DNA of 64,000 nucleotides from Rugalucina vietnamica (taxonomy: Eukaryota > Mollusca > Bivalvia > Lucinida > Lucinidae), in NCBI GenBank assembly GCA_964017185.1, contig OZ024882.1, forward strand, positions 41,017,988 to 41,081,987. The letters are read 5' to 3'. Position 1 is the stretch's first letter. Each line of letters starts with the position of its first letter. Both the position numbers and the translations under genes were made by a program. The notes under the pieces were generated by a model that was not told where the DNA came from, ran no database searches, and saw only the letters and a program-made list of their open reading frames with translations. This document shows, piece by piece, positions 4,801 through 55,929 of this stretch.

Positions 4801-7800
4801 ACAAATCTGAAATTTCAAGCCTCCAGCCATCTTCAGCAGCAGCGTCAACAAGATCTCACGAATTGCAGCTAATATTTAGAAACTGGAAAGGACACAAAGT
4901 TACACATGAGAAGACTTGTTATCAAATTGACAATCAATGTTTTTTTACCTTGACTTGGAAGACACAATGTCTGGAAGATACGGCAGTCTTTTTAACCTGA
5001 TAATACTATCATAGAATGATGGTTGAAACATGTTGGCTATTGCATTGGAAATTAACACAGCTATCTGGAATGAGATACAATATATAACAGTTAATGAGAT
5101 ATCACAGTTTCTATTAAAAGTTATACATAGATTTTGAAATAAACAGAAACTTGAAATATTACCCAAGCGTAAATAAGTCTGTCACTTTTAATGTGTCCCA
5201 ATCTTTATAAAGAGCAATAAAATGATCATTTTGCCAAAGCTGATGGTGTCCTAAACACAGTCTCTAGGATAAAACCAAAAACAACTAGAAATTGGCTGCA
5301 AGCAAGGCTTTCAGTATACCCCCCGCAAAATTATCTAAGGCCAATCACTTAAAGGCCTTTAAGTGAAACATGCAGAAAATTTGTCAAAAATATCTTTTCA
5401 GCATTATAAACCTTCATGAAAATCCTCCGTACATGTCTGACTCATGTCTGTAAGGTAATTAATAATATACTGAAAGCCCAGGGAGTAAAATTATTGTTGA
5501 TTTCACTGTACACTGTTGATCATTATTTATCATGAGAAATGGTCAAAAATTGGCTATGCTAAAAAAAGCTGTAAATTTGTCAAAAATAAATTATTCAGCA
5601 TAAGAATTCTTCATGCACATCTGAAATATATCTGGAACAAGTGTGCAAAGAATTCAAATAAAACAATGAAAGCCCTAGGAGGACTTGATTTCATAAAGTA
5701 TGCACTACCAGCCGTATTGTATATTAGCGATGGTTGAAAAATGTCTAAGTTGAAAAATGCTGTAAATTTGTCAAAAATTATTTTTTCACCAATAAAATTC
5801 TTTATGCACATCTTCAATATGTCTGTAACATGTCTGCAAAGTATTGAAAAGAATTACTGAAAGCCCCAGGAGGAGTTGGATTTCACAAAGTATGTACTAT
5901 CAACCATAATTGAATATAAGCAGAAATGGTCAAAATTGGCTAAGTTTAAAAAGCTGTAAATTTGTCAAAACTAAAATTTTCAGCATAAAAATTCTTCATG
6001 CACATCTTCAATATATCTGGAACAAATCTGCAAAGAATTAAAAAGAAACAATGAAAGCCCTAGGAGGAGTTGATTTCACAAAGTATGCACTACCAACCAT
6101 TATTGTATGTAAGCAATAGTCCAAAAATGGCTATGTTAAAAAATGCTGTAAATTTGTCAAAAAATATTTTTTCAGCATTATAATTCTTCATGCACATCTT
6201 CAATATGTCTGTAACATGTCTGCAAAGTACTGAAAAGAAATACTGAAAGCCATAGGAGGAGGTGATTTCACAAAGTATGTATGTAAGCAATAGTCGAAAA
6301 ATGGCAAAGTTAAAAAATGCTGTAAATTTGTAAAAAATTATTTTTTCAGCATTATAATTCTTCATGCACATCTTCAATATGTTTGTAACATGTCTGCAAA
6401 GTACCGAAAAGAAATACTGAAAGCCCTAGGAGGAGTTGATTTCACAAAGTATGTATGTAAGCAATAGTCGAAAAATGGCAAAGTTAAAAAATGCTTTAAA
6501 TTTGTCAAAAATTATTTTTTCAGCATTATAATTCTTCATGCACATCTTCAATATGTCTGTAACATGTCTGCAAAGTACTGAAAAGAAACACTGAAAGCCC
6601 TAGGAGGAGTTGATTTCACAAAGTATGCACTACCAACCATTATTGAATATAAGCAATGATAGAAAATTTGCTAAGTTAAAAATGCTTTAAATTTGTCAAA
6701 AATGATTTTTTTTTCAGCATAACAATTGTTCATGCACATCTGCAATATATCTGAAACATTTCAGCAAAATATTAAAAGGAAACAGTGAAAGCTGTAAGAG
6801 GAGTTGATTTCACAAAGTATGTACTTTCAGTACTATGGCAAACATGTTACAGGAAGACTTAAAAAGTCCCATAACTCTTGCAATACTGACCCTTTGGCCC
6901 CTAAATTCATACCACACATGTATTGTCTGATGGTGCAAGTGTGGTGAAAATTTGAAACAAATCAGGCAAAAGCTACTCAAGTTATTCAGCAAAGATGTCC
7001 AAATGTTGACGGAATGACGGAATCACGGAGTCACGGAATCACGGAATGACGGAGTGACGGAATGACGGAATGACGGACAGGCTGAAAACAGTATACCCCC
7101 CTAAAACTTCGTTTTGCGGGGGGTATAATTAATTTAAAGGTGGCGGTAGTGGTGTTCTTGTTTTACGTCCCATTAAACAGGTAAGGTCATATGGAGACAG
7201 CACCTTGGTTTAAAGTCTCATCTGAAAGACTGGAAAAGCCATGGAGTAAGCTTGCCACCCGAGGTTCACAAGAATGGCTTTACCTGTATGCCCAGGAAAA
7301 AAGAAAGAAAAATGTTAACATACCACAGCAGGAAGGACATGAGAAATTTGTCCAGTCAACTCAAATACTATCACAGATGTTGAAATAGTCCTGGTAACAC
7401 TACCCGACAACGCTGCAGCCCCTGAAACATGATCAAACACACATAGTAAATCAAACATGTTCACATGGCGTTAATTCACGACACGGGCAGGCTGTGAGAA
7501 ACCTGTCCTGTCAGCTCAAAACTTTTCAGAGAAATAACCATTTCCTTGTACATATTTCTTTCAATACTAACTGATATGTGCTCTTCTTGAAACAGAAGAA
7601 ATGGAAGAATACCCATAGAAATACATACATGTGTGTCCATGACCAGAAATGTGAAAGATCATCAATATGAATTGGACACACCAACTATCAGGCTACGACA
7701 TCAAGTTTAATCAATGGTCCTCCACTTTGTTCAGACCAAGATTCTGTACCACAATTTAATGTGTAATCCATCCCCATACATACCCACAACAGCATAGCCA

Positions 7801-10800
7801 CCAGGCACTATCTTATGTATCACATCTCCTGTTTTAACACCATTAGGAAACCAGGCTGCCATGCCTTCCCCAATTAATCTGCCAAAGGCTGCACCTGTTC
7901 ACAGAAGATAATACATGGTTATCATACTATTGTTTATCTTTAAAATTTTATATTCAAGGATACAGCAAAAACCCCATTTCTAAGAAAAATGTGCAAAGAT
8001 AGAAGAAAAGCCAGGTTTGTCTTCTAATGCTCAGCACCAAGAAAGCAATAAACTGGTGTTATTTTAATGCTTCTAGCATGGCTGGGGCTCAAACTTCAGG
8101 CTCCTGAAGCAGACTGTCTACCATTTGAGCTATTGAAGCCAGTAAAAGACCCATAAGTACCGAAGTTTATGCAAAGTTTATGAATATGTCACATACTCAC
8201 CTATAGTGAAGACAGGTACAAAAACACCAGCAGGTATAGGTAAAGTACTGCACAAAGCTGCCATCCAAAAGTACTCACCTATTGTGAAGACAGGTACAAA
8301 CACACAAGCAGGTATTGGTAAAGTACTGCACAAAGCTGTTATCCAAAACTACTCACCTATTGTGAAGACAGGTACAAACACACCAGCAGGTATAGGTAAA
8401 GTATTGCACAAAGCTGCCATCCAAAACCACTCACCTATTGTGAAGACAGGTACAAACACACAAGCAGGTATAGGTAAAGTATTGCACAAAGCTGCCATCT
8501 AAAATTACTCACCTATAGTGAAGACTGGTACAAACACACCAGCAGGTATAGGTAAAGTATTGCACAAAGCTGCCATCCAAAACTACTCACCTATAGAGAA
8601 GACAGGAACAAACACACCAGCAGGTATAGGTAAAGTATTGCACAAAGCTGCCATCCAAAACTACTCACCTATTGTGAAGACAGATACAAACACACCAGCA
8701 GGTATAGGTAAAGTATTGCACAAAGCTGCCATCCAAAACTACTCACCTTTTGTGAAGACAGGTACAAACACACCAGCAGGTATAGGTAAAGTACTTCACA
8801 AAGCTGCTATCTAAAACTTCTCACCTATAGTGAAGACAGGTACAAACACACCAGCAGGTATAGGTAAAGTATTGCACAAAGCTGCCATCTAAAACTACTC
8901 ACCTATTGTGAAGACAGGTACAAACACACCAGCAGGTATAGGTTAAGTATTGCACAAAGCTGCCATCCAAAACTACTCACCTATAGTGAAGACATGTACA
9001 AACACACCAGCAGGTATTGGTAAAGTATTGCACAAAGCTGCCATCTAAAACTACTCACCTATAGTGAAGACAGGTACAAACACACCAGCAGGTATTGGTA
9101 AAGTATTGCACAAAGCTGCCATCTAAAACTACTCACCTATAGTGAAGACAGGTACAAACACACCAGCAGGTATTGGTAAAGTATTGCACAAAGCTGCCAT
9201 CTAAAACTACTCACCTATAATGAAGACAGGTACAAACACACTAGCAGGTATAGGTAAAGTATTGCACAAAGCTGCCATCCAAAACTACTCACCTATAGTG
9301 AAGACAGGTACAAACACACCAGCAGGTATAGGTAAAGTATTGCACATAGCTGCCATCTAAAACTACTCACCTATAGTGAAGACAGGTACAAACACACCAG
9401 CAGGTATAGGTAAAGTATTGCACAAAGCTGCCATCCAAAACTACTCACCTATTGTGAAGACAGGTACAAACACACCAGCAGGTATTGGTAAAGTATTGCA
9501 CATAGCTGCCATCCAAAACTACTCACCTATTGTGAAGACAGGTACAAACACACCAGCAGGTATAGGTTAAGTATTGCACAAAGCTGCCATCCAAAACTAC
9601 TCACCTATTGTGAAGACAGGTACAAACACACCAGCAGGTATAGGTAAAGTATTGCACAAAGCTGCCATCCAAAACTACTCACCTATTGTGAAGACAGGTA
9701 CAAACACACCAGCAGGTATAGGTAAAGTATTGCACAAAGCTGCCATCCAAAACTACTCACCTATTGTGAAGACAGGTACAAACACACCAGCAGGTATTGG
9801 TAAAGTATTGCACAAAGCTGCCACCCAAAACTACTCACCTATTGTGAAGACAGGTACAAACACACCAGCAGGTATAGGTAAAGTATTGCACAAAGCTGCC
9901 ATCCAAAACTACTCACCTATTGTGAAGACAGGTACAAACACACCAGCAGGTATTGGTAAAGTATTGCACAAAGCTGCCATCCAAAACTACTCACCTATTG
10001 TGAAGACAGGTACAAACACACCAGCAGGTATTGGTAAAGTATTGCACATAGCTGCCATCCAAAACTACTCACCTATTGTGAAGACAGGTACAAACACACC
10101 AGCAGGTATTGGTAAAGTATTGCACATAGCTGCCATCCAAAACTACTCACCTATTGTGAAGACAGGTACAAACACACCAGCAGGTATTGGTAAAGTATTG
10201 CACAAAGCTGCCATCCAAAACTACTCACCTATTGTGAAGACAGGTACAAACACACCAGCAGGTATAGGTAAAGTATTAGGTATAGGTAAAGTATTGCACA
10301 AAGCTGCCATCCAAAACTACTCACCTATTGTGAAGACAGGTACAAACACACCAGCAGGTATAGGTAAAGTATTGCACAAAGCTGCCATCTAAAACTACTC
10401 ACCTATTATGAAGACAGGTACAAACACACCAGCAGGTATTGGTAAAGTATTGCACAAAGCTGCCATCCAAAACTACTCACCTATTGTGAAGACAGGTACA
10501 AACACATCAGCAGGTATAGGTAAAGTATTGCACAAAAGCTGCCATCCAAAACTACTCACCTATTGTGAAGACATGTACAAACACACCAGCAGGTATTGGT
10601 AAAGTATTGCACAAAGCTGCCATCCAAAACTACTCACCTATAGTGAAGACATGTACAAACACACCAGCAGGTATAGGTAAAGTATTGCACAAAAGCTGCC
10701 ATCCAAAACTACTCACCTATTGTGAAGACAGGTACAAACACACCAGCAGATATAGGTAAAGTATTGCACAAAGCTGCCACCTAAAACTACTCACCTATTG

Positions 10801-13800
10801 TGAAGACAGGTACAAACACACCAGCAGGTATAGGTAAAGTATTGCACAAAGCTGCCATCCAAAACTGAAATTTGAAGATTCAGTTTACATATACTGTAGC
10901 AACTTATCTGCACATTTTTGATTTAGACAGAAAGAATTATACCAAAGAAAGACAAATGTTCAAAGATATAATTGTTTCTTTGCTATGAATAAAATTGTTC
11001 TGTTCTTTTTGTTTAGATATGAACAGAACTGTTTTTCTTTGTTTGGAAATGAATAGAACTGTTCTATTTGTTTAGATATGAATACAAATGTTCTTTTTCT
11101 TTGGATACTAATAGCATTGTTCTTTTTGTTTGGATAATTTGTTTGGATAAGAATAGAATTGTTCTTTTTGTTTTAATAGATATGAATAGAATTGTTCTTT
11201 TTGTTTAGATATGAATAAAATTGTTCTTTTTGTTTGGATATGAATAAAATTGTTCTTGTTGTTTGGATATATGAATAAAATTGATTGTTCTTGTTGTTTG
11301 GATATGAATAAAATTCTTTTTGTTTGGACCAATCACAATGTGACATTGTGGGCTTTTCTTTTCACTGACAAACATGAATATCTTTGTTTAAAGGCATGCT
11401 CCATGACAGCACTTCTAAATTACACCGTATTGTAAAGTTGATATCAATACATGTTCTAAGAATTTATTGGCGCTTTCAAATAATGTCAAATTCATTCAGG
11501 AATTTATCAATAGCATCAAAGTAATTTTAACGTTTTTACATCACATCCTGCTAAAGTCACCTATTTTGCTATTTTGTTATCTCTGTATGTTAATGAAGTT
11601 TGAATTTTACTGTCTGGAGAAGGAAGTTATTACAAAGAATGTGGCATCGAAGAAAACTGATTTTTGTCCATATACGAAAATCTACAGTGAAACAGATACT
11701 CACATTCATAACAATAAAAATGAGTAAGTTAATATAAATATTTGTTTCTGGATGTTTCCAGTGGCTGATTATCTCTTCTTCATTCAAATCCTCAGCCTGA
11801 CCAAACGTCCAGGTTATATTGCTGAATAACTCATCTACAGCTTGGCGGTGGGTTAACTGGAAAATAATACATGAAATACAATACAGCTTGTCGGTGGGTT
11901 AACTGGACAGAAAATTTTTTGTAAGTGAAGTATCGCCCTTATTCTTTCCATTCTTTTTTTATTTCATATGAGGCAATCAAAAGATACGGTACCTCATCAT
12001 TTACAACTTTAAGATAATCCAAACCTTCTGCCTGGCTAAATTCTTGCCTATGTTTATTAAGTCTGTTTGTTTTGCAGTTTTACATCCCGGTCAACAATTT
12101 TTTTCAGTCCTGTGTCTTGCTCAAGGACACAACATGGCATCCCAGTCTGGGTAAAACCCAGGACCTCTACAGTTCTGTTTGTCACTGGCTTATTGTCCCA
12201 ATCAAAACATTTTCAGCTATATCTGGATGAAGCCATTTTCTGGTATAACTTACATGTACAACTATGGGTCAGTATCAGAAGTTAATATGTCTTATTTGAG
12301 CCGCCCCATGGGAGAACCAACAATCTGCATAGGCGAAAACAAAGGCGCAGATCAGCTTCGCGGTAACCGCAAAGCTGATCAGCGCCTTTGTTTTCACTAC
12401 TCGGATAGTACAATTAGTCTTCTACTTAAATCCAAAATTTCAAGCTTCTAGATCTTTTCTGTGCTTGTACAGGTTGGTTTGTGTCGGACCTGTTCGGAAA
12501 CCACATTGTTGGTTTTCCCACGAGGCCGCTCATTTGTTGATACAAGTAGGTGCCAGTGGGGTTCAAATCATTAGAGCCGCCTCGTGGGAAAACCAACAAT
12601 GTGGTTTCCGAGCAGGTCTGACACAAACCGGGCTGTACAAGCACCGAAGATGGCTAGAGACTGGAAATTTTGGATTTAGAAAGTAGAGGAATTGTACTAT
12701 CCGTTAGCGAAATACTATTAGCAAAAACAAAGGTGCTGATCAGCTTCTCGGTTACCGAGAAGCTGATCTGCGCCTTTGTTTTCACATATGCAGATTGTTG
12801 GTTTTCTCATGAGGCGGCTCATTAGTCTCTTAAGCTTTTATGTCTGAGGGTCTTTCACTAGGACACCGCATTCCCATTTTATTGTGAGCACTATTTTACG
12901 TCAGAAATGTTTTAATGAAGGAAGCTTTAGCACCACTTCTTGTGCTGCTATATCTTTCAAGGCTTAATTGTGTGTATATCTGTCTTACTTACATGAGCTG
13001 CATCATGAGAAAACCAGCTTTTGACATGTGCGAAATCAAAGACCCAGATCAGTTATTGCACAGCTGATAAGCATCTTTGTTTTTGCTTTTTTGTATTGTA
13101 AATCCCTTTTCTTAGATCTTAAATTTCAGGCCAGTTTGTGTCAGACATGGCCCTGAGGTTGTAAAACTTTTTTCATGCTCCACTCAGCTGAGCATGAAAT
13201 ATAATTTCCTCATTAACACTGAAACAGCCCAAATTAATTGAAATTTGAGGTTTAGACCATCAAAACCAGTAATTTATTCTGCTGATAAATGCTAAAATTT
13301 TAATATTTATCAGCAGAATATAATTTTAGTCTCAGCTGAGCTGAGACCTGCAAATTTCTAATGTAACAGCACATGTAAAGTGGCTTACCAATCCAGCAAA
13401 GAACTGCCCTAGACCCAGTGGGAATGTACAGGATGATATAACAATGGCAATAATACCTGGAACACTGTGGTTATGACAACTGACTATACTGACATGACCA
13501 ATCTGTTGACCGGGGATGTAAAGCAACAAAACAACAACTTCGGGCAACAACTAAAATGCTTACCAATCCAGCAAAGAACTGCCCTAGACCAGGTGGGAAT
13601 GTACACGACGATATAACAATGGCAATAATACCTGGGTATATAAAACAACTTACCAATCCAGCAAAGAACTGCCCTAGACCAGGTGGGAATGTACACGATG
13701 ATATAACAATGGCAATAATACCTGGGTATATAAAACGACTGAAAATAAAACAGAAATTCAATAGTATTGAGAAACATGGAAACAAAATAATATATACATA

Positions 13801-17300: not shown

Positions 17301-20300
17301 GTATACAGTGCTCCAGATAATTTTTTTCTCAATCAGTACGGTACAGGTCAAAATTTAAGCCAATCAGTATCCAGATTTCGGCTTCAGTACCTGTTCTATT
17401 TGCCCACGAAAAGACTTTTTAAGTCCAATCCTGTGAAAAATTTGGGCATAGGTTCCCCTGCATTTTGCATTTTATTCTTCACCCTCTCCTTAATAACCCA
17501 GGCCTATTGAAAGATATGGGCAAGACAGAAGTAAAAGGGAAGGTGGGGGAGTACATTGGCTCATAAAGACTTGCAAGTCTTGACTAAGTGTCATCGTCCA
17601 ATGCACAACCTTTCCCCTTATTGACCTTAGATAGATATGAAAATGCTACATACTCTGGTTTCAAAGCGATGTATCAGCTTAAATACATGGTGGAATTTTG
17701 TGAATTTGGCGTGTCACCAGTACAATCACGATTTAAAACCCCAAGATCACCGTTTTCCATCGTTGTTTACTTGCATTTAACTCCGGAAACAAATGTTCTA
17801 CTTTCGTTTTCTTTGTAGTAAAATATGCCAACTACCGATGTAAGCGCGAATTTGATTGGTTGAAATTTAAACAAAGCTAGAAATTCGTATTTTGTGGACC
17901 AATCGTATGTGACGACTTTTCGTGGCACTTGGGAAGCGTTGTAAATAAAATAATTATGGGCCTCATAAAAGTGGCATGCGGAGAAATCTGCCTCAAATTA
18001 GCGGCACTCGGGGATAATGAGTTAAGGTTACGGTCAATGAGCGTAACCCAACCGTATCGGTCATTTCGTTCCCGTTTTTGGTACTGACAAAATTTCAATT
18101 TCTACCGTATCTGCAAAAATTAAGTCCGTAAATTACGGCTGTACGGACGCTATCTGGAGCACTGAGTATACATTTCTTATTTTTGGTCCAACACATAGAT
18201 TGTGGGTACTCGTTAGAACCACCTAAGCCGCCTTGCTTTCTAACATGTACTCACAATCTATGTTTTAAGCAAAAACAAGAAAAATATCAATTTTTTTCTG
18301 ATGAAATTTTCAACTTTTACAGCTGAAAAAAATCTCCGTATATTGCATGGGCAAGTTTTCATAATGTAACTACATTTACCTGTATATTTAAGCCAGACTG
18401 CAAGCAGCCTAAATGTAACAGCTCCGCACACAGCGGCGAAGAACCCACGCCAGTAATTACGTACAGCAAAGTATGTCGCAGTTACTTCTATACTAAACAG
18501 TACCCCTGAAAAATAGGTTCATATAATATGCATATAACAAGTACTGTAATCAAACTCATTAAAACTGCTATTTGAGCTGCGATGCGAGAAAACAGGTCTT
18601 TGGGGTTTCCAACCAGGTCTGATACAAACAGTCACAGAAACAGGTTAGAAGCAAGAAATTTCCAATTTAGGAAGAAAAGGAATTGTACTATCCGTGAAGT
18701 GAAAACAAAAATGCTGATCAGCTGTGCAGTTACTGCTCCAAAACACAGATTGTGGATACTCGTTTGGGTCTAACTTGTATCCACAATCTATGTTTTGAGC
18801 AAAAATAAGAAAAATATCAATAACTTTCTATTGAAATTTTCAAATTTTACAGCTGAAAATAATCTCTGTAGTGCATGGGCAAATATTCGTAATGGAGCTA
18901 AAGTGAACTTATTTCAACAGTTCTTACCCCCAATAGGGGCAGCAAATGTTCCTGCTACCCCTACAGCACAGGCAGCAGCTAACATCTCAGTACGACGAGA
19001 TTCATTCTGAAAAATAGAAACAAAAAAAGTAATTTACGACCATAATCATAATCTACAATCTGTTTTTTTCTTTCTTTTAAATGAGCCAGTCTTTGGGGTT
19101 TCCGACCAGGTTTAACACAAACTGGCCTGTACAGTATCAAAAGATGGCTAGAAGCTTGAAATTTTGGATATAAGTAGAAAAGGGATTGTACTTTCCGAGT
19201 AGCAAAAACAAAGGCGCTGATCAGCTTCGCAGTAACTGCGAAGCTGATCTGTGTCTTTGTTCTTGCATAGGCAAAAATCCTGTTTTCTCATGAAGCGGCT
19301 CAAATGGTGAAGCATCAATATTGCACCATGATCCAGTTTTGAGATTAAGTACACAAAAACTAATTTTTGTTATCAAACTTTCATCAGGATTTTCCCCTTT
19401 TATTATCAAAATAGCCATAAATAAACTATTAAAATGGTCATGTCAAAAGTGGATAATTTTATAATCTATACTTATAAATGTCATCAGGATAACATGTCCG
19501 TGAAATGTATACCCCCTTATACCCCACTTTTATACAGCAAAACTCGGGTATGCAGGGGTATACTTATTTTTCTTATTTTTGCTCCAATACATAGATTGTG
19601 GGTACTCATCAGAACCGCCTACTGCCTAAGTGAGGCGGTTCTTATGTGTACCCACAACTAGGTTTTGAGCAAAAATAAGAAAAAAATCATTTTTTTAAAT
19701 GAAAATTTTCATTTTTACAAAAACTTCTGTGTATTGCATGGGCGCGTTTTCGTAATGGTGCAGAATTACTTCCTTATTGAGGTTTACTGCTGTTTATGCA
19801 ATCACGGTAAAACATAAGATGTAAATTTTATACAAAAACATAAGTATGACCTTTGATATAGTGAATTTGCCTTGAAATATAAAAGCCTGTTGATTACCTG
19901 GTAAATGCCTCTAAAAGATGACATTTTCCCCAATAATGTAGCAACTATACTGGCAATATGTACAAAAGGCCCCTGGAAAACACAAAATGAAAAGAGAAAA
20001 TGAACTGTCTCAACTTTTTCTTTTTATATCCTATAGTTTCTTTATGGAGTACATGTACATTTTGTATCTGTATTTATGCCAGCTATTTAGTTCTTTGTTT
20101 GGTTGCTTTGTGTTTTATAACTTAGATGATAAATATCGATTTCATCTACATCCCTTGTTCCCAGTTGCAATTTGTATCTTCTGAGTAACTGCTGTTTCTT
20201 TTCAAATTAGACATCATTTCCATGCTTAAGAAATTTTTCAATTTAACATTTGAGCCGCCTCGTGGGAAAACCAACAATGTGGTTTCCGAACAGGTCCAAC

Positions 20301-23300
20301 ACAAATCGGCTTGTACAAGCACAGAAAAGAGCCAGAAGCTTGAAAATTTGGATTTAAGTAGAAGAGGAATTGTACAATCCGAGTAGCGAAAACAAAGGCG
20401 CTGAGCAGCTTCGCGGTTACCGCGAAGCTGATCTGCGTCTTTGTTTTTGCCTATGCAAATTGTTGGTTTTCCCATGAGGCGGCTAATTTTTGTAAATAAC
20501 CATTTGTGACTTTAAAGTGTCACAAAAAACATCAGGATTTTTTTTTTTTGAATTCTATAAAATCTTACCTCTTTCCCAAACGGCAGTGTGCTGCCAAGGG
20601 ATGAACACAGACCCACTACTTTGGACACTAAGGTCCGAAATGTGAGAAATTCTTTTAAAACAACACCTCGCAGAATAGTTTTCATTTCTGGTATTCCTGA
20701 GCCTGGAGAAATATAGTAAAAGTCATGTGGTATTTAATGCCAGTCATTAATAGAATTTTATGCTCTTGGTATATACATCCATTCAGGCACTCATGTCTCC
20801 GCTATACTGACACAATGCTAATCAGCTATAGCCTATAGATATCTCTTAATCTAGGTCATAAAGCGAAGATACCTTGTCTATTTTATTAAAAAAATGGTTC
20901 ACTTGCGAATTCAGTACATTGTGGACAATTCGGAAAAGGACTATATGCAAATCAAAAGTCATATGAAACTATTCAAATTTACCTATAATTGCAATGATGT
21001 GATATATAAGATGTGTTCAAATAGAGCTGAGCAAATTATACCTGGACCCAGTTGCTCGTTAAGACATAAATTTGTTAAGCAAATATCAGCTAAAGTAACA
21101 AATACCCTGTTATTTTTTGTCGAAAAAATGTGAGAATCCTTTGCAGTGCAAAGGATTCTCACATTTTTTCAACAAAAAATAACAGTGTATTTGTAATATT
21201 AATGTTTGAAATTTAAACGAAACGTTAACTAACGACGTCGTTAGTTTTGAACAACTCGGCCCAGGATGTTAGATTTTTACTTACCAATAGCTTGTGGAGA
21301 TACTAAGTGAGTAAAGCCCGTGGCAAACATTATAAACAACAGCGAATACAGCACCCACGTTACATACTGTAGAGCAACAGAGAATGCCAACTCCTCGTAT
21401 AGCCAGATTTTTGCTGGAAATATAAATTGTACAACTTGAAATACAAGTACATCATCATGCTGATATTTGTGAGCTATAATTGTCTTTGATGGCTCCGTAA
21501 CAGAAGCAAGTTAAGCTTAAGAGCATTGAAAGAAAATCTGTGTACGCTTTCTTAACTTGATGAGTCAAAAACATGCAGGTGTGGCCAGGTGTATAGACAT
21601 TTTCCCAGAAGCTCTTTATTTGAGAAATCTGACCACAGTGCTGGTATTCTTATCTGCTTTTATAATTTACAGTGCTCCAGATAGCGTCCGTACAGCCGTA
21701 ATTTACGGACTTAATTTTTGCAGATACGGTAGAAATTGAAATTTTGTCAGTACCAAAAACGGGAACGAAATGACCGATACGGTTGGGTTACGCTCATTGA
21801 CCGTAACCTTAACTCATTATCCCCGAGTGCCGCTAATTTGAGGCAGATTTCTCCGCATGCCACTTTTATGAGGCCCATAATTATTTTATTTACAACGCTT
21901 CCCAAGTGCCACGAAAAGTCGTCACATACGATTGGTCCACAAAATACGAATTTCTAGCTTTGTTTAAATTTCAACCAATCAAATTCGCGCTTACATCGGT
22001 AGTTGGCATATTTTACTACAAAGAAAACGAAAGTAGAACATTTGTTTCCGGAGTTAAATGCAAGTAAACAACGATGGAAAACGGTGATCTTGGGGTTTTA
22101 AATCGTGATTGTACTGGTGACACGCCAAATTCACAAAATTCCACCATGTATTTAAGCTGATACATCGCTTTGAAACCAGAGTATGTAGCATTTTCATATC
22201 TATCTAAGGTCAATAAGGGGAAAGGTTGTGCATTGGACGATGACACTTAGTCAAGACTTGCAAGTCTTTATGAGCCAATGTACTCCCCCACCTTCCCTTT
22301 TACTTCTGTCTTGCCCATATCTTTCAATAGGCCTGGGTTATTAAGGAGAGGGTGAAGAATAAAATGCAAAATGCAGGGGAACCTATGCCCAAATTTTTCA
22401 CAGGATTGGACTTAAAAAGTCTTTTCGTGGGCAAATAGAACAGGTACTGAAGCCGAAATCTGGATACTGATTGGCTTAAATTTTGACCAGTACCGTACTG
22501 ATTGAGAAAAAAATTATCTGGAGCACTGTATAATGAAGAAATGCTCTATAGATAACATTTTTTTTTCATTTCAAACCTTGTTGATTAATGAATGTACAGT
22601 AGCAGTGATGTATTTGGAATCAAACCTGCTCATAAAATGTGTCTGAATCTCTCAACCAGTAAAGTGTAACCCAGCCATTTTCTTTGCTTCAGTATGGTAC
22701 TGTCACAATAAGAAAAAGTTTTGGACTGTTTGAAAAAATATAGACAAACTCAAGTTATTTTACCTTCTTGGCATTTTTCTATCACATAATCCATAGCAAA
22801 ACTTAACAGGGCCATTAATATTCCTAATAATGCTAAAAATATCCATTCCTCTCCGACTTTGTGGAACAGCCAATCACGGAACTTTACTAGTCTTTCTGAA
22901 AATTGAAATAGTGTACATTTACATCATCACATGATTAATTGAAAATATATGTCAGGACCCAGTTATTCAAAATTAATGATTTATTAGTTAACAAGTCATT
23001 AAAATTTCAAATGGCAATATGAGAATTACACTGTTATTTTTTTGTTGAAAAAATGTGAGAATCCTTTGCATTGCAAAGGATCCTCACATTTTTTCAACAA
23101 AAAATAACAGTGTATTTGCTTATGTAGTTGGCATTTACATAATGAGTGGTCTTAACGATGACGTTAAGCTAAAGAAGTTTTGAACAACTGGCCCCAGGCA
23201 GTGAGACTATAGATGCAATTGTGGTTCTTAGACATTGCCTGTTAAATAAATTAGGTGCAATATTGTTGTTTTTTTTTTTCTGCTCAAAAATCAAAAGTGC

Positions 23301-26128: not shown

Positions 26129-28204
<2,076 letters not shown>

Positions 28205-38742: not shown

Positions 38743-41700
38743 GGCACCATTCTAAACATTCACAAACAACCCAATTCTTCTTTGTTTAAAACATTACTTT
38801 AATAATTGGTCCTACGACACCAAAAGTAATCAGCAAAAGCAATAGTAACCACTTCTACATGTGCCACAACAACCAAAATTAGCAAGTCCTTCCTTGTCTA
38901 CCCCAGCACTTCGTCTACGACGTCTTGACTTTTTAGTTTGTAATCTTTTCACAGTTGTTCACACGTCGCAAAAGGCTTTACAATACCACAACAGGTCAAC
39001 ATTACCTACTTCTTCAACCATAACAGCATGACATCTACCACAAGTACCACCAGACCCGATTCTACTTGCCTGCATGAGAAAACCAACAATCTGGGTACCG
39101 ACCAGGTCTGACACAAACCGGCTTGTACAATCACAGAAGCAGGCTAGAAGCTCGAAATTTCGGATTTAAGAAGTAGCGAAAACAAAGGCGCTTATCGGCT
39201 TTGCAGTAACTGCGAAGCTGATCAGCACCTTTGTTTTTGCATATGCAAAATGTTGGTTTTCTAATGCGAAGGCTCAATGATATATAAATTACTGCTTCCT
39301 CAGTGGTTCCTACGACACCAACGACTACCATTACTGAAAAAACTACTTCAACACGTGCCCCAACCACCACCACAACAACTAGTACCACAACAAGCACCAC
39401 AACAACCACACCGTCTACGACAACTTCACCCACAACTACAACTACAACAACAACTCCTAAACCTACCACATCGACAACCACCACATCCACCACGAGCTCT
39501 ACCACTTCAAGCACTACTACTAGCACCACAACAAGCACCACTACGACAAGAACAACCACAACAACAACTAGACCACCTACTACCACTAGAAAAGTTGTAA
39601 TCCATGGTAAGTCATTATCTTTATTTTGTGACTGTACATGCCTACAGCTGTACTACCACATTTCCCACTACAACTAGCGCCACCACCAGCACTACGACAA
39701 GAACAACCACCACAACAACTAGACCGCCTACTACCACAAGAAAAGTTGTAATCCATGGTAAGTCATTAGCTTATTTTGCGACTGTACAGCCATATCTACA
39801 ACTGCATCTACCAGTACAACGAGCACCAAAATAAATACCACCACCAGAACCACAACAAGAACAACAACCATAACAACAACTAACTAGAAAAGTTGTAATC
39901 TATGGTAAGTTGTTATCTTTTTTTTTTGCAACAGAAGAGATCTATTTCCATACCTACAACCACAGCTATCATTACAACTAGTACCACAATACGCACCATT
40001 TTAATTACTTAAAATTTTGGTTATTGCCGTCTTGTGTTTTGAGCGACGATTCCTGGTCATTGCTTACATTTTGTTTTTACAGGCGATATCAGTAAGTGTC
40101 CAGATCACGTGAAAACCGATTCCATTCGAGTCAACGGCTATGTGAACCAGTACGACAACTACTGCTTCGTTTTGGACCCACAAGCCGACACGTGGTCAAA
40201 TGCCGAGAAGCACTGCACTCAAAGAGGCGGACACTTGTTGACTATAAGGAACGCACAGGAGCAGGAATTCTTCACCAAGTACTTAAAATCTCACCATTGG
40301 GTAGAGTCAGTGTATATTGGTTTAAGAGATGATAAAACGGAGGGCTCCTATTATTGGTCATCAGGTAAGATCCTAGAGTTTGTCAGATTTATTTCATTTT
40401 TTGTAATAATTTTGATTTGCAACATACCAGTAATGTTGTTGAAGAATTTCATCCTTATGCCGATTGTGACATTCTGCAAGCTGCAGTCAAACAGAGATAA
40501 TAAGGCTTTGTTGAATAAATAGAAAGATCGAGAGCTAGTCCCTGAATTGTGGCAATGAGAAGATGAAGTACCTTAAGAATGTATAGATAATCACGTTTTA
40601 TTCATGTATATCTTCAATGTAAAGGAGCCCCTGTAACCTACACGAACTGGGCCCCTGAGGTCACCGACCCGCACCACACCCACGCTTCAGATGACTGTGT
40701 TGTGATGAAGGCAGATGGAAAATGGGACGACATATACTGTGGTATTGGGCTCATAGGGGGCATAGGGGCACTAGAAAGACACCACTTCATATGCCAATAC
40801 GGTATGTTATGTTATTTACACGTGAGTGATACCACTGCAATTTGTAATACGGTAATTTGTTTTAATAACAATAGAGAGAGAGACTCGTTCGTGCGTCAAA
40901 AGGGTTTAGCTATTTAACTTTGAACAACAACCACTTCTTATGTACGGTTATAAATATATTCAGTATTCTTGAAGTCTTAGACTTCATTTGCCTATAATAT
41001 TAGTGAAGTTAGTATCAAGCAAAATGTAATTTCAAGAAAAGAATATGAGACATACGATATCAGGAAATGACAGATGCCATTCCGAAAACGGGTACAAATT
41101 TAGCATTGCTTAAATCAGTATGCAAATCAATCATCCTTTAAAACAACACAAACAGAATTTAAAGCTAGTAAAGAAATTGGGAATTCACGTGCACATACTA
41201 GTAAAATTTCAAAAACAAATTTATGATGCTCTTTTGTACATGTATTAACATGTACCCTTACACGTACACGACCTATCTTATATTTTCTCATTCTTCTCAC
41301 CTGTGTTGTTATGAATGCTAATTGGTTGGGGATGACGTATTCTGTGGTATATAGATCTCATAGGGACAGAGACACAATATGTCAAAGCGGTAGTTGAAAA
41401 ACCTTCAGGAATTTGGTCTAGGTAATTCGCATACAGAACATTTGTGACTAGCTAATTAAGTTGTGTTATACGTTGTGCGGACAACGATTGAGAGGACAAC
41501 CTTAAATGCGTAGAATCTGAAGGAACTGAATAGGTACCACTGTTTATTCGGTTAATGACCAAATTGGTTCAATGTGATCCCGCGATCAAAGGATTGTCAT
41601 AATGAAGTGAATATCTCATCACTGCAGAGGGTAATAAAGAGGCATTAAAGATAATACCTGTGGCCCACTATTTCTTGGGTTCATGGCCCCTCATAATCTG

Positions 41701-52300: not shown

Positions 52301-55300
52301 GCCTTCCGTATAGAATTTTCAGCACGCTGTATCTCAATATGAGAGTTTCTGTTAGTAGGATGTAAATCACTGACAAAGCAACATGACTTGCAGATTTTGG
52401 TTTGGAATAAGGGTTTTTAAGGGTATGATCATAGAAAGCAAATTTATACAAAATATGAAAATGTTAACAAGTGTACCCATTCTTACAGCTTTAGGTGACC
52501 GGATTTTTTTTTGAGGAGTATCACGGGGACCCAACTGTTAATCGTGATTATTGATGCGACGTGGAATGTTAATGCATGCTAACATGAAGTTTCGTATGCG
52601 TCGGCGATATCGTTACGAATGCGACGTTCCACATCCTCTGCCCTTGAACCGTAAGTAGCACATGTTTTGCTCTCGCGAAAATAAACAAAGCCGAGTTTAC
52701 AAAATCGGCGTCCACTATGATCTGCAAAATTCTTCTATGTTCCCACTTGAAGTCAATTGGAATAATTACGGCACTTGTGTTTTTCAGCTAATGGTTTATA
52801 AAGTTGACCTGTAGATACAATTTTGCCACGGAAACTCATTACATTCTTAAATTCCTTTTGTTTTTCTTTATCTTGGTCGTAAACTCAAAAGTATAACACA
52901 GTCCTGTGGGTGTCTTTATTGAAATATATATCCAAACGGCTTTGTAAATGCACATTATCTACAGAGAGTGAAAAACAGTAGGATAAGCATCTGTTGTATG
53001 CATCGAAGACGTTGTTAAAATTTAATATGCGGCACAGAAATGCATCGTGGAAGAATGAGACCGATGATTCAGTAAAATAAAATAGCAAATGTTGCGATAT
53101 GGAGACAATGATGCGTTTTCTTCAATAAATATTTTTAGATACATGTTAAAGGGGTCAACCATGGTTTTTATACTGTATCATTACTTACAGAGGCTGAGCC
53201 CGAGGCCGAGGGTTCAAAGTGCTCCCGAAGACTCTTCTAACGTAAATGCAATGAAATAACAATAGTTGATCGCTGTTCTTGTATAACATACCATTCCAAT
53301 GGAAAACTGCCTCGCAACCGCACCTTAAAACCGCATAAACCCCTTTAATTCCCCCCCCCCCCCCGCTGCTTATCAGAAATGCATGGAGCCACCCATATTC
53401 AATGATCAAAAATTATTTGGTTTAGCCTTAGACTCATTTAATGTAAGGTAACATATAAGTTCTGTCACAGATATGTCCGAAAATGATTTGCTGTTTCGAG
53501 GCAAGAATAAATCAGTTGTGTCACTCGAATGTTGACAGCTGAATCAGAAACCCCACTCTGTGACCTCATTCAAAATAAAAGTGGTATACTCATCGAAGTG
53601 CATGTAGTCCAAGGAAAAAACGCCATGCAATATTTCGCTTGATAAAGACATTCGTTATGCTTCTGCGTGTACGTAAATAACTTTTGAAAGAGCCCAACAA
53701 AAATGCTAATTCTTCCATGACTCATTCTAGTAGTACGTACCTTCATCTTCGATGCATACAAAAGATGCTTATCTTACTGTTTTTCACGCTCAGTAAATAA
53801 ATGTGCATTTACAAAGCCGTTTGGATACAAATTTCAATAAAGACACCCACAGGACTGTGTTATACTTCTTAGTTTACGACCAAGAGAAAGAAAAACAAAA
53901 GGAATTCAAGAATGTAATGAGTTTCCGTGGCAAAATTGTATCTACATGTCAACTTTATAAACCGTTAGCTGAAAAACACAAGTGCCGTAATTATTCCAAT
54001 TGACTTCAAGTGGGAACATAGAAGAATTTTGCAGATCATAATGGACGCCGATTTTGCAAACTCAGCTTTGTTTATTTTCACGACAGCAAAACATGTGCTA
54101 CTTACGGTCCAAGGGCAGAGGATGTGGAACGTCGCATTCGTAACGATCTCGCCGACGCATACGAAACTTCATAATAGCATGCATTAACATTCCACGTCGC
54201 ATCAATAATCACGATTAACAGTTGGGTCCCCGTGAGTATATGTTCGACATTTGTTGAAAGGTAACCTAAGCTAAGCCGTCTAGCGAAAGTGGAACGAGGT
54301 ACCGAAGTGCAGCGGAGTGAAGGCTTTTCATAATATTTTTTGGCTGTAATTATTTTATTAGTGAACCGATATTCAAAAATTTTGCGTTACTTTTTACGAC
54401 TTTTGGGTTGCAAAAAGATGACATAATCATATTTTTCTTGTTGTGTTTCAGAAAAGTGAGATTTTGAAAAAAAAATGCAGTTTCTGAAAGATGGTGTACC
54501 CTTCTATTTTTACATATTTGTATTTGCTGAACATGTTTCACAGTAACTGTTGTTTATACGACACCAAAGAGAACTACAACACAACTTATAAAGGATAATT
54601 CTACACGCGCCTCGGCTACCAAACCAATCAGTATCACAACAACCACGCCTTCTACCTCTACGGTAATCACTACGCCTTCGACTATAAGGCCAATTACTAC
54701 CACGACTACAACTCCCAAACCTTCTACAACATCCACAACCACGACTGCATCAACGACGAGTTCTACTACATTTAGTACCACGACAAGAACCACAACAACC
54801 ACCACTAGACGACCTACCACTACTAGAAAAGTTGTAATCCATGGTAAGTCGTTATCTTATTTTGTGACTGTACTGTGAGACCTGCTACAATTATACAAAT
54901 TTGTATAATACTGGTGTAAAGGAAATATGAAATTAATAAGATATTGGTAGATTTCGTTCAATTCCTTTAATAGTCAAATATGATGCTTTCGTGGTTATTG
55001 TAAATTAACAGATATGTTTAGATTAAACCAATATGTAGGGTATTTTTCAGTTATTACCTCAGCAATTATTTTCCGTGTATATTGTATGCGATTGTATGCA
55101 TTTGATTTTCCAATTCCATGATATTAAGTATAGTATACCGAATTCAATCTATTTACCAAAACCTTTCAGTATCTTACCATAACATAATTTTGGCCATTTT
55201 CGCGTTCACAGGTGATATCAGCAAGTGCCCAGATCACGTGAAAACCGATTCCATTCGAGCCAACGGATATGTTAACCAATACGACTATTACTGCTTCGTC

Positions 55301-55929
55301 TTGGACCCACAAGCCGCCACGTGGTCAAATGCCGAGAAGCATTGCACACAAAGAGGTGGACACTTGTTGACTATAAGGAACGCACAGGAGCAGGAATTCT
55401 TCACCAAGTACTTAAAATCTCACCATTGGGTAGAGTCAGTGTATATTGGTTTAAGAGATGATAAAACGGAGGGCTCATATTATTGGTCATCAGGTAAGAT
55501 CCTAGAGTTTGTCAGATTTATTTCATTTTTTGTAATAATTTTGATTTGCAACATGCCAATAATTTTGTTTAAAAATTATGCCGATTGTGACATTCTGCAA
55601 GCTGCAGTCGCAATCAGATAATAAAGATTTGTTGAATAAATAAAAAGATTGAGAGATAGTCCCTGAATCGTGGCAATAAGAAGATTAACTTAAGAATGTA
55701 TAGATAATCACGTTTTTATTCATGCCTAATTTTGCTTATCTTCAATGTAAAGGAGCCCCTGTAACATACACGAACTGGGCCCCTGAGTTCACCGACCCTC
55801 ACCACACTCACGCTTCAGATGACTGTGTTGTGATGAAGGCAGATGGAAAATGGGACGACATATACTGTGGTATTGGGCTCATAGGGGGCATAGGGGCACT
55901 GGAAAGGCACCACTTCATATGTCAATACG
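45471..55929 (+). CDS. Secreted C-type lectin with mucin-like linker, gene 2 (terminal exon off window)
   Basis: Tandem paralogue of gene 1 with the same exon phases and lengths: 45471-45692, 46073-46145, 54544-54843, 55212-55493, 55753-55929. 1054 nt are seen; adding a 59-nt terminal exon like that of gene 1 would give the same total. Signal peptide (LLHRPVLLLTWLTNSAIA), small domain (CLCNYH, KVYSQ, FDCKP, WKAIQFE, AFVHLD), a 99-codon Thr-rich linker and a C-type lectin domain. The lectin exons differ from gene 1 by only about four residues, whereas exon 1 is about 60% identical by hand alignment. Intron 2 is 8.4 kb because of nested insertions. The stop is expected just beyond position 64000. 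Confidence 0.9.
46073..46145 (+). CDS. Lectin 2 exon 2
   Basis: Reads VAFVHLDYQVLLQTC then VGEPPKDDL plus one base. Acceptor ATATCTTCGCAG, donor TTAG|GTAATA. Confidence 0.88.
46301..46378. repeat. (CAT)n(CTT)n microsatellite
   Basis: CATCAT run followed by a TTC run in lectin 2 intron 2. A Ser-rich frame across it is a repeat artefact. Confidence 0.9.
46652..47112. mobile_element. Element with AGCTCACCTGAGC end and GTCCGTCCGTCC tract
   Basis: Left end AGCTCACCTGAGCC, then AAGGTGAGCTTATAGTATGG and repeated GTCCGTCC. Right end CTCAGGTGAGCGATCGTTGC. Same family as the larger element ending at 50116. Confidence 0.7.
47710..50116. mobile_element. Element carrying a 455-bp tandem satellite
   Basis: Left end near CGCTCACCTGAGATC; right end TAAGCTCACCTTGTGAGCCT and GGCTCAGGTGAGCT, with GGACGACGGACGGACGGACG just inside. 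Between are five tandem units of 455-456 bp: the block GGGCATGG(C/T)GGCCATCTT occurs at 48076, 48531, 48986, 49442 and 49897. Repeated minus-strand frames of 68 codons come from the satellite and are not genes. Confidence 0.83.
50344..51287. mobile_element. TTAA-flanked inverted-repeat element (944 bp)
   Basis: Ends GGATGTTCGCTGC and GCAGCGAACATCC with TTAA on both sides (50340-50343, 51288-51291), a target used by piggyBac and Kolobok transposases. No coding sequence recognised. Confidence 0.82.
51959..52520. mobile_element. MITE with TACTCCTC...AATCCGGTCACC ends
   Basis: Left CTCCTCAAAAAAAATCCGGT, right ACCGGATTTTTTTTTGAGGA then GTA. About 560 bp. A second element has inserted immediately at its right end. 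Confidence 0.65.
52521..54235. mobile_element. 1.7-kb foldback element
   Basis: Ends TCACGGGGACCCAACTGTTA and its inverse. The inverted arms of about 490 bp (52521 to about 53010, and 53745-54235) are highly similar. GTA is present directly on both sides, a probable 3-bp target duplication. No coding capacity recognised. Confidence 0.85.
54544..54843 (+). CDS. Lectin 2 exon 3 (Thr-rich mucin-like linker)
   Basis: Acceptor AACATGTTTCACAG, donor CATG|GTAAGT, 99 codons. Less purely Thr than in gene 1, with a non-repetitive start (TVVYTTPKRTTTQLIKDNST) and the same TTTRKVVIH end. Confidence 0.88.
55212..55493 (+). CDS. Lectin 2 exon 4 (C-type lectin domain, N-terminal two-thirds)
   Basis: Same length as in gene 1 with three residue changes (V to A, N to Y, D to A). 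Acceptor TTTTCGCGTTCACAG, donor TCAG|GTAAGA. Confidence 0.93.
55753..55929 (+). CDS. Lectin 2 exon 5 (C-type lectin domain, C-terminal part)
   Basis: One residue differs from gene 1 (EVTD to EFTD). Acceptor TTCAATGTAAAG, donor TACG|GTAAGT. Phase 1 out, so a further exon is required. Confidence 0.92.

Follow-up and report, generated by a model that had tools for sequence, protein, structure and literature searches.

The 64,000-nucleotide stretch of the Rugalucina vietnamica genome analysed here (assembly GCA_964017185.1, contig OZ024882.1, positions 41,017,988 to 41,081,987; hereafter the window) carries on its minus strand a chloride channel gene in which one exon, here termed exon K, heads a long tandem array of its own copies. 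The assembly comprises 1.09 Gb in 47 contigs, the window lying on a contig of 53.4 Mb. Fourteen exons of the gene, lettered B to O, could be joined on the minus strand in phase, giving 498 amino acids with no stops. The closest PDB chains to this product are those of CLC-2 (E = 3.9e-180), followed by ClC-1, and Pfam family PF00654 (Voltage_CLC) is matched with E = 9.7e-57 by a query that omits exon M; as judged from its predicted product, the host gene is a ClC-2-type chloride channel gene. The joined frame holds GSGIPE, GKEGP and GxFxP in an uninterrupted membrane domain, and the N- and C-terminal exons are only partly annotated. We take these three strings to be the ClC motifs of those names, and GxFxP, which is encoded by exon K, to be the pore motif; 14 of the 23 residues of the exon K product are identical to human ClC-2. 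That the locus is a pseudogene was ruled out as far as testable, the apparently absent exon M being located by tblastn.

The array was delimited by Tandem Repeats Finder together with cyclic alignment of the minus strand. The former reports a period of 78 with 34.0 copies at 92% matches (score 4471) over 8194-10866, and the latter gives 34 units running from 10864 down to 8194, of which the last exon copy ends at 8201, bearing out the 34-copy, 78-bp array that a preliminary description had placed at 8201..10864. Each unit comprises, head-to-tail, the 70-nt exon K (TTTTGG...ACAATAG) and then GTGAGTAG, such that the segment repeated extends from the acceptor AG through the entire exon to about 7 nt beyond the 5' splice site (i.e. 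including GTGAGTA); the final unit continues into GTGAGTATGTG. Exon K fits in phase between exons J and L, and the zero-stop joined frame agrees with the earlier identification of the repeat as the ClC exon lying between those ending in LLIFIVMN and beginning with AAFGRLIGE. Exons of the gene were compared with its introns by BLAST under the criteria of the published exon-stuttering screen (PMC12954441, see below). For exon K, 34 pieces aligned over the 33 later copies, each at 42.1 bits or more, and for exon I two, whereas a further 13 exons gave no piece. The same screen of 20 shuffles of the gene yielded no piece of at least 20 nt at E <= 10, so that a chance origin of the exon K repeats is excluded.

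There are 25 distinct unit sequences among the 34, no exact repeat is longer than 155 bp, and the copies diverge from one another by a mean of 3.3 substitutions per 78 nt. Copies 24-34, nearest to exon L, are furthest from the consensus, with 3.0 differences where the other two thirds of the array have 1.45 and 1.58. Higher-order repeats were rejected, adjoining copies being hardly closer than remote ones (between 2.91 and 3.28 differences over lags of 1 to 11 units). Copies 3 and 5 each contain a 1-nt insertion, and copy 8 contains an 18-nt in-frame internal duplication. Within the unit 54 of 78 positions are invariant and 24 variable, with changes to the spacer confined to its last three positions, and the array as a whole has a GC content of 0.41.

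The preliminary description had taken each unit to be the exon with an intact GTGAG donor. The donor part stands, GTGAG being invariant in 34/34 copies, whereas the units are exons by homology only: the frame is open in 21/34, interrupted by stops in 11 (9 of these by one TGG to TAG change) and shifted in 2, i.e. 13/34 copies are broken. The GxFxP motif is gone from eight copies (3, 4, 5, 21, 24, 28, 31 and 33). The 22 distinct changes comprise 5 synonymous, 14 missense and 3 nonsense, compared with a neutral expectation (transition bias 2) of 5.6, 15.8 and 0.6, respectively; the copies are without coding constraint, and their pattern of change fits neutrality. Given 24 variable positions out of 78, the invariance of GTGAG is itself not remarkable.

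Acceptors were scored with a matrix built from this gene's own 13-14 sites and compared with a background of 1323 AGs on the minus strand of window positions 1-24300. The acceptor of copy 1 scores 7.9 and the exon starts of copies 2-34 score from -9.5 to -2.0, with a median that 54% of the background AGs reach; 13 of the gene's 14 real acceptors score at least 6.1. Of the 33 repeats beyond the first, copies 31, 32 and 34 have lost the preceding AG itself. Donor scores are 10.2 in 32/34 copies and 8.8 and 9.9 in the remaining two. Since the later copies keep the donor but are without a convincing acceptor, copies 2-34 are most simply regarded as intron. Any donor beyond the first brings in an in-frame TAG, which stands at codon 26 once the exon is extended, so that the frame stays open with just one of the 34 donors; a coding variable number tandem repeat was rejected on this ground, read-through halting at that codon.

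In our assessment the array most probably represents a minisatellite within an intron, for which a coding exon was the seed ("exon stuttering"), and which is ignored by splicing and has no coding role. The neutral pattern of change, the 13/34 broken copies and the 33 copies without a convincing acceptor all agree with one suggestion of the preliminary description, that of a neutral minisatellite of coding origin. The process would have started with a single tandem duplication whose junction overlaps by 1 nt and whose segment covered the acceptor AG (or just the G), all of exon K and the first 7 or so nt of the intron. One such event followed by expansion fits the flanks, copy 1 being preceded by ...AAATTTCAG, the units being joined through GTGAGTAG and the right flank reading GTGAGTATG. 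The duplication would have been tolerated in that the donor was copied and the acceptor was not, and unequal exchange or slippage could then have expanded it. On this model the single acceptor would pair, over the length of the exon, with the first donor available, that of copy 1, and copies 2-34 would be spliced out inside the 2.9-kb intron. If a later donor were chosen, each copy passed would add about 78 nt to the exon and the frame would meet the TAG of GTGAGTAG, giving no channel and a message that would probably be degraded.

The expected choice of donor can be related to the work of Carranza et al. (PMC9225289), who report that, where flanking introns exceed 250 nt, choice among near-equal donors is biased towards the one at the shortest distance over the exon. 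In five of the minigenes described there, which carry two identical strong donors and are spliced under exon definition, no donor but the upstream one was used. The introns around exon K measure 839 nt upstream and 2900 nt downstream, with 306 nt remaining from the last donor; because all three lengths lie above this 250-nt threshold for exon definition, copy 1 would be expected to be used and the rest removed. Copy 1 is thus probably spliced normally, and the channel protein most likely carries one normal pore exon.

Several points weigh against this reading. The splicing outcome is one that we infer from DNA. In human, PMC9225289 gives the upstream donor of a near-equal pair a preference of only 60% over the whole genome, and short introns or intron definition are there reported (again from human data) to favour the downstream donor. 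The genuine-looking acceptor of exon L scores -6.1, below most of the internal copies, such that the small matrix used here is not decisive alone. The AG/GT sites at exon ends within the array score mostly 0.2, a median that 22% of the background AGs reach, but range from 0.2 to 5.9, and some use of internal sites may occur. Lastly, copies 13, 15, 16 and 32 match the consensus as copy 1 does, so the intactness of copy 1 is no proof of its use, and its consensus identity alone is no proof of selection on it.

An alternative, also named in the preliminary description, is that the array acts as a splicing brake, its 34 near-equal donors diverting a share of transcripts into TAG-ended, degraded extended exons and its length tuning output. 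A stop does follow every donor beyond the first, and 32/34 donors share the top score of the 14 exons scored, but exclusive use of the upstream identical donor in the five minigenes of PMC9225289 argues the other way, and the conservation of GTGAG is within chance where 54/78 unit positions are invariant; we consider a brake unlikely. Improbable, too, is a rheostat in which a donor ladder of variable length, each copy adding a strong 5' splice site and an in-frame stop, sets the share of productive ClC-2 transcripts among individuals. A bolder form of the rheostat, in which AG/GTGAGT at the unit ends allows stepwise (recursive) removal of the array, is unsupported, as is recursive splicing through the exon-end AG/GT sites in general.

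The preliminary description had also proposed that the array might supply alternative pore exons. Differing copies would then be spliced, as alternatives or in a mutually exclusive manner, between J and L, as in Dscam-type clusters. One 70-nt copy would indeed fit in phase, 21/34 frames are open, and some of the amino-acid changes lie in or near the filter. Against this, the acceptors of copies 2-34 are unconvincing and three have no preceding AG, only 8 nt separate one copy from the next, a stop follows any later donor, and no purifying selection is apparent, and GxFxP has been lost from eight copies; on these grounds the proposal is unsupported and we regard it as very improbable. Among the features of a mutually exclusive cluster, a donor is present in 34/34 copies, an acceptor well above background in 1/34 (by the small matrix), and constraint is absent. 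The array resembles Dscam-type clusters, as PMC9013439 describes them, in its many tandem copies of one exon in a gene, and differs in that the later ClC copies have neither convincing acceptors nor intron space and show neutral decay; the absent acceptors and this decay ruled out assignment to that type. Although tandem arrays are a usual site of assembly errors, it is extremely unlikely that a short array or single exon was wrongly stacked here, since a stacked block would give long exact repeats in place of the 155-bp maximum, the 25 distinct units, copy-specific variants and internal duplication of copy 8 found here. The exact copy number may nonetheless deviate from 34.

Amplification of a short element from a splice boundary has a precedent in the antifreeze glycoprotein gene, which was born from an element at an exon-intron boundary of trypsinogen and in which the repeat became coding; the ClC repeat, unlike that one, seems to stay intronic. 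A closer counterpart is the exon stuttering of chicken described by Hron et al. 2026 (PMC12954441), who report 115 genes and 236 introns, with length variation among birds; small GC-rich dot chromosomes carry 190 of these introns, and macrochromosomes 36. Stutters there comprise 1-44 copies (median 4) with an exon part of 20-187 bp (median 36) and a span of 112-23,555 bp, and more than 90% begin within 1 base of an exon border. The phenomenon is called new in that text, which gives it as unseen in other vertebrates except in GC-rich genes of gerbils. The ClC array likewise consists of direct tandem repeats of a coding exon with a splice site in the adjacent intron, the source exon (copy 1) being intact, and its unit starts at the exon border (acceptor AG) and includes the donor GTGAGTA; with 33 extra copies, an exon part of 70 nt and about 2.7 kb in total it lies near the top of the chicken range in copy number. 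Judged by its sequence, it is exon stuttering under the working definition of PMC12954441. It differs in comprising a whole exon, in being orderly, and in lying in an AT-rich genome (37% GC in the sample described below) on a 53-Mb contig; the association with GC-rich dot chromosomes, which PMC12954441 reports as a result and not as a criterion of the screen, does not extend to the ClC array. The earlier characterisation of the array as unusual is fair, but its sister phenomenon had already been published. No report of such an array outside birds was found in the open PMC literature.

Of the other systems compared, the exon-2 arrays of Schistosoma mansoni SmPoMuc genes (PMC2576457, up to about 20 genomic copies) also place a short exon in an array inside a gene, in this case of a flatworm, but there the repeat is about 1 kb and includes the flanking introns, and the repeated exon is present in transcripts, whereas the ClC unit holds only the exon and its donor. 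Judging from passages of the respective reports, earthworm metallothionein genes with intronic minisatellites (PMC12783039) and the duplicated exons of Drosophila Y genes (PMC8794474) do not represent the same phenomenon.

A second exon of the gene has also been duplicated. Exon I is present in three copies with about 96-99% identity (I1 to I3, Table 1), of which I3 reads FPLG in place of FPPG. Like the exon K repeats, I2 has a donor and no convincing acceptor. The in-frame acceptor of I3 is weak (-1.6), and a strong AG at 13456 (10.1) would shift the frame. Copies of this kind, derived from two exons (K and I), suggest that donor-bearing, acceptor-less copies are the kind tolerated, and a corresponding rule may be proposed whereby such copies accumulate in the next intron with the message unchanged. 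The array further suggests that exon stuttering occurs beyond GC-rich bird and gerbil genes, in which case high GC would not be required for the mechanism. It offers a natural test of choice among 34 near-identical 5' splice sites, and it is a potential trap for annotation, in that gene finders may predict many false exons within it.

Table 1. Positions of the exon K array, its splice sites and other exons of the ClC-2-type gene in the window
Feature	Position	Strand	Basis or remark
Tandem array, 34 copies of the 78-bp unit (exon K + GTGAGTAG)	8194..10864	-	Tandem Repeats Finder, cyclic alignment
Exon K copy 1, likely spliced exon, 23 residues	10795..10864	-	Equals consensus; in frame with J and L
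Copies 2-34, probably intronic; 11 with stops, 2 frameshifted	8194..10786	-	Alignment, splice-site scores
Sole convincing 3' splice site of array (actgaatcttcaaatttcag)	10865..10884	-	Score 7.9; reached by 2.6% of 1323 AGs
Donor GTGAGT of copy 1	10789..10794	-	Score 10.2, top among 14 exons scored
Exon J, upstream neighbour of K (...LLIFIVMN)	11704..11856	-	Joined frame
Exon L, downstream neighbour of K (AAFGRLIGE...)	7784..7894	-	Joined frame
Exon M, 33 residues	7324..7421	-	tblastn, joined frame
Exon N	4949..5064	-	Joined frame
Exon I1 (FPPGLGQF), strong acceptor (8.2)	13654..13738	-	Joined frame, scores
I2, tandem copy of exon I after 5-nt GTAAG spacer	13564..13648	-	Weak acceptor (-1.5); 2 of 85 nt differ
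I3, third exon I copy (FPLGLGQF), about 100 nt beyond I2	13389..13464	-	3 differences in 72 nt

The remainder of the genome was searched with protein queries and by means of a 200-kb sample (GC 0.37) drawn from 20 loci, of which two flank the window. The 63 protein matches scored over the 1.09 Gb revealed neither a further ClC-2-type gene nor a further array; 48 of them fall in the window and 15 elsewhere, in five places and at 30-55% identity. Nor did this search reveal an intact single-copy version of exon K elsewhere, the finding that the preliminary description had named as incompatible with its proposal. Vertebrates have several ClC-1/2/K-type genes; a single gene that can be assigned to this type by sequence was found here, which points to a non-vertebrate genome. 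Two ClC paralogue loci (L029 and L030, 2.5 kb each, from the 15 outside matches) have one GxFxP exon and no tandem repeat over it. Scoring of 150 out of 233 Ion_trans candidates gave 114 matches, and scoring of 65 out of 253 myosin-head candidates gave 91; inspection of both sets by eye showed no comparable array. The 200-kb sample contains 24 tandem-repeat rows of period 30 or more, none above 9.7 copies; two units of the 9.7-copy repeat, at L019, are interrupted by stops in each of the six frames.

Tandem repeats of period 20 or more make up 39% of the J-K intron and 57% of the M-N intron of the gene, compared with 5% of the genome sample; in 11 of the 14 ClC introns the share does not exceed 5%, and one locus of the sample reaches 31%. 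The J-K intron contains an array with a 29-bp unit at 11000-11324, and the M-N intron one with a 174-bp unit in 6.9 copies at 5537-6829. On the upstream side of exon M, 60 bp away (7482-7523, minus strand), stands a 13-residue piece similar to the end of that exon and possibly left over from a third exon duplication. Two further ClC introns hold an inverted pair of 863-bp elements, 99.9% identical (17302-18164 and 21670-22532), which probably represent a recently active transposable element.

Searches of the window with Rfam (gathering thresholds) and ARAGORN gave no matches. Outside the window, a 184-bp direct duplication (98%) lies beside the ClC paralogue exon of L029 (260-627), and three myosin-head matches to nearly the same stretch of the profile, about 1 kb apart (G000:C3:16465077-16467095), look like ordinary alternative exons. 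The plus strand of the window carries two C-type lectin-like genes (PF00059) with threonine-rich stretches, at 39288-40670 and 54531-55798, which share 90% DNA identity over 617 bp and apparently reflect a recent gene duplication. A CTAT microsatellite of about 236 copies, with 99% matches, occupies 26130-27077.

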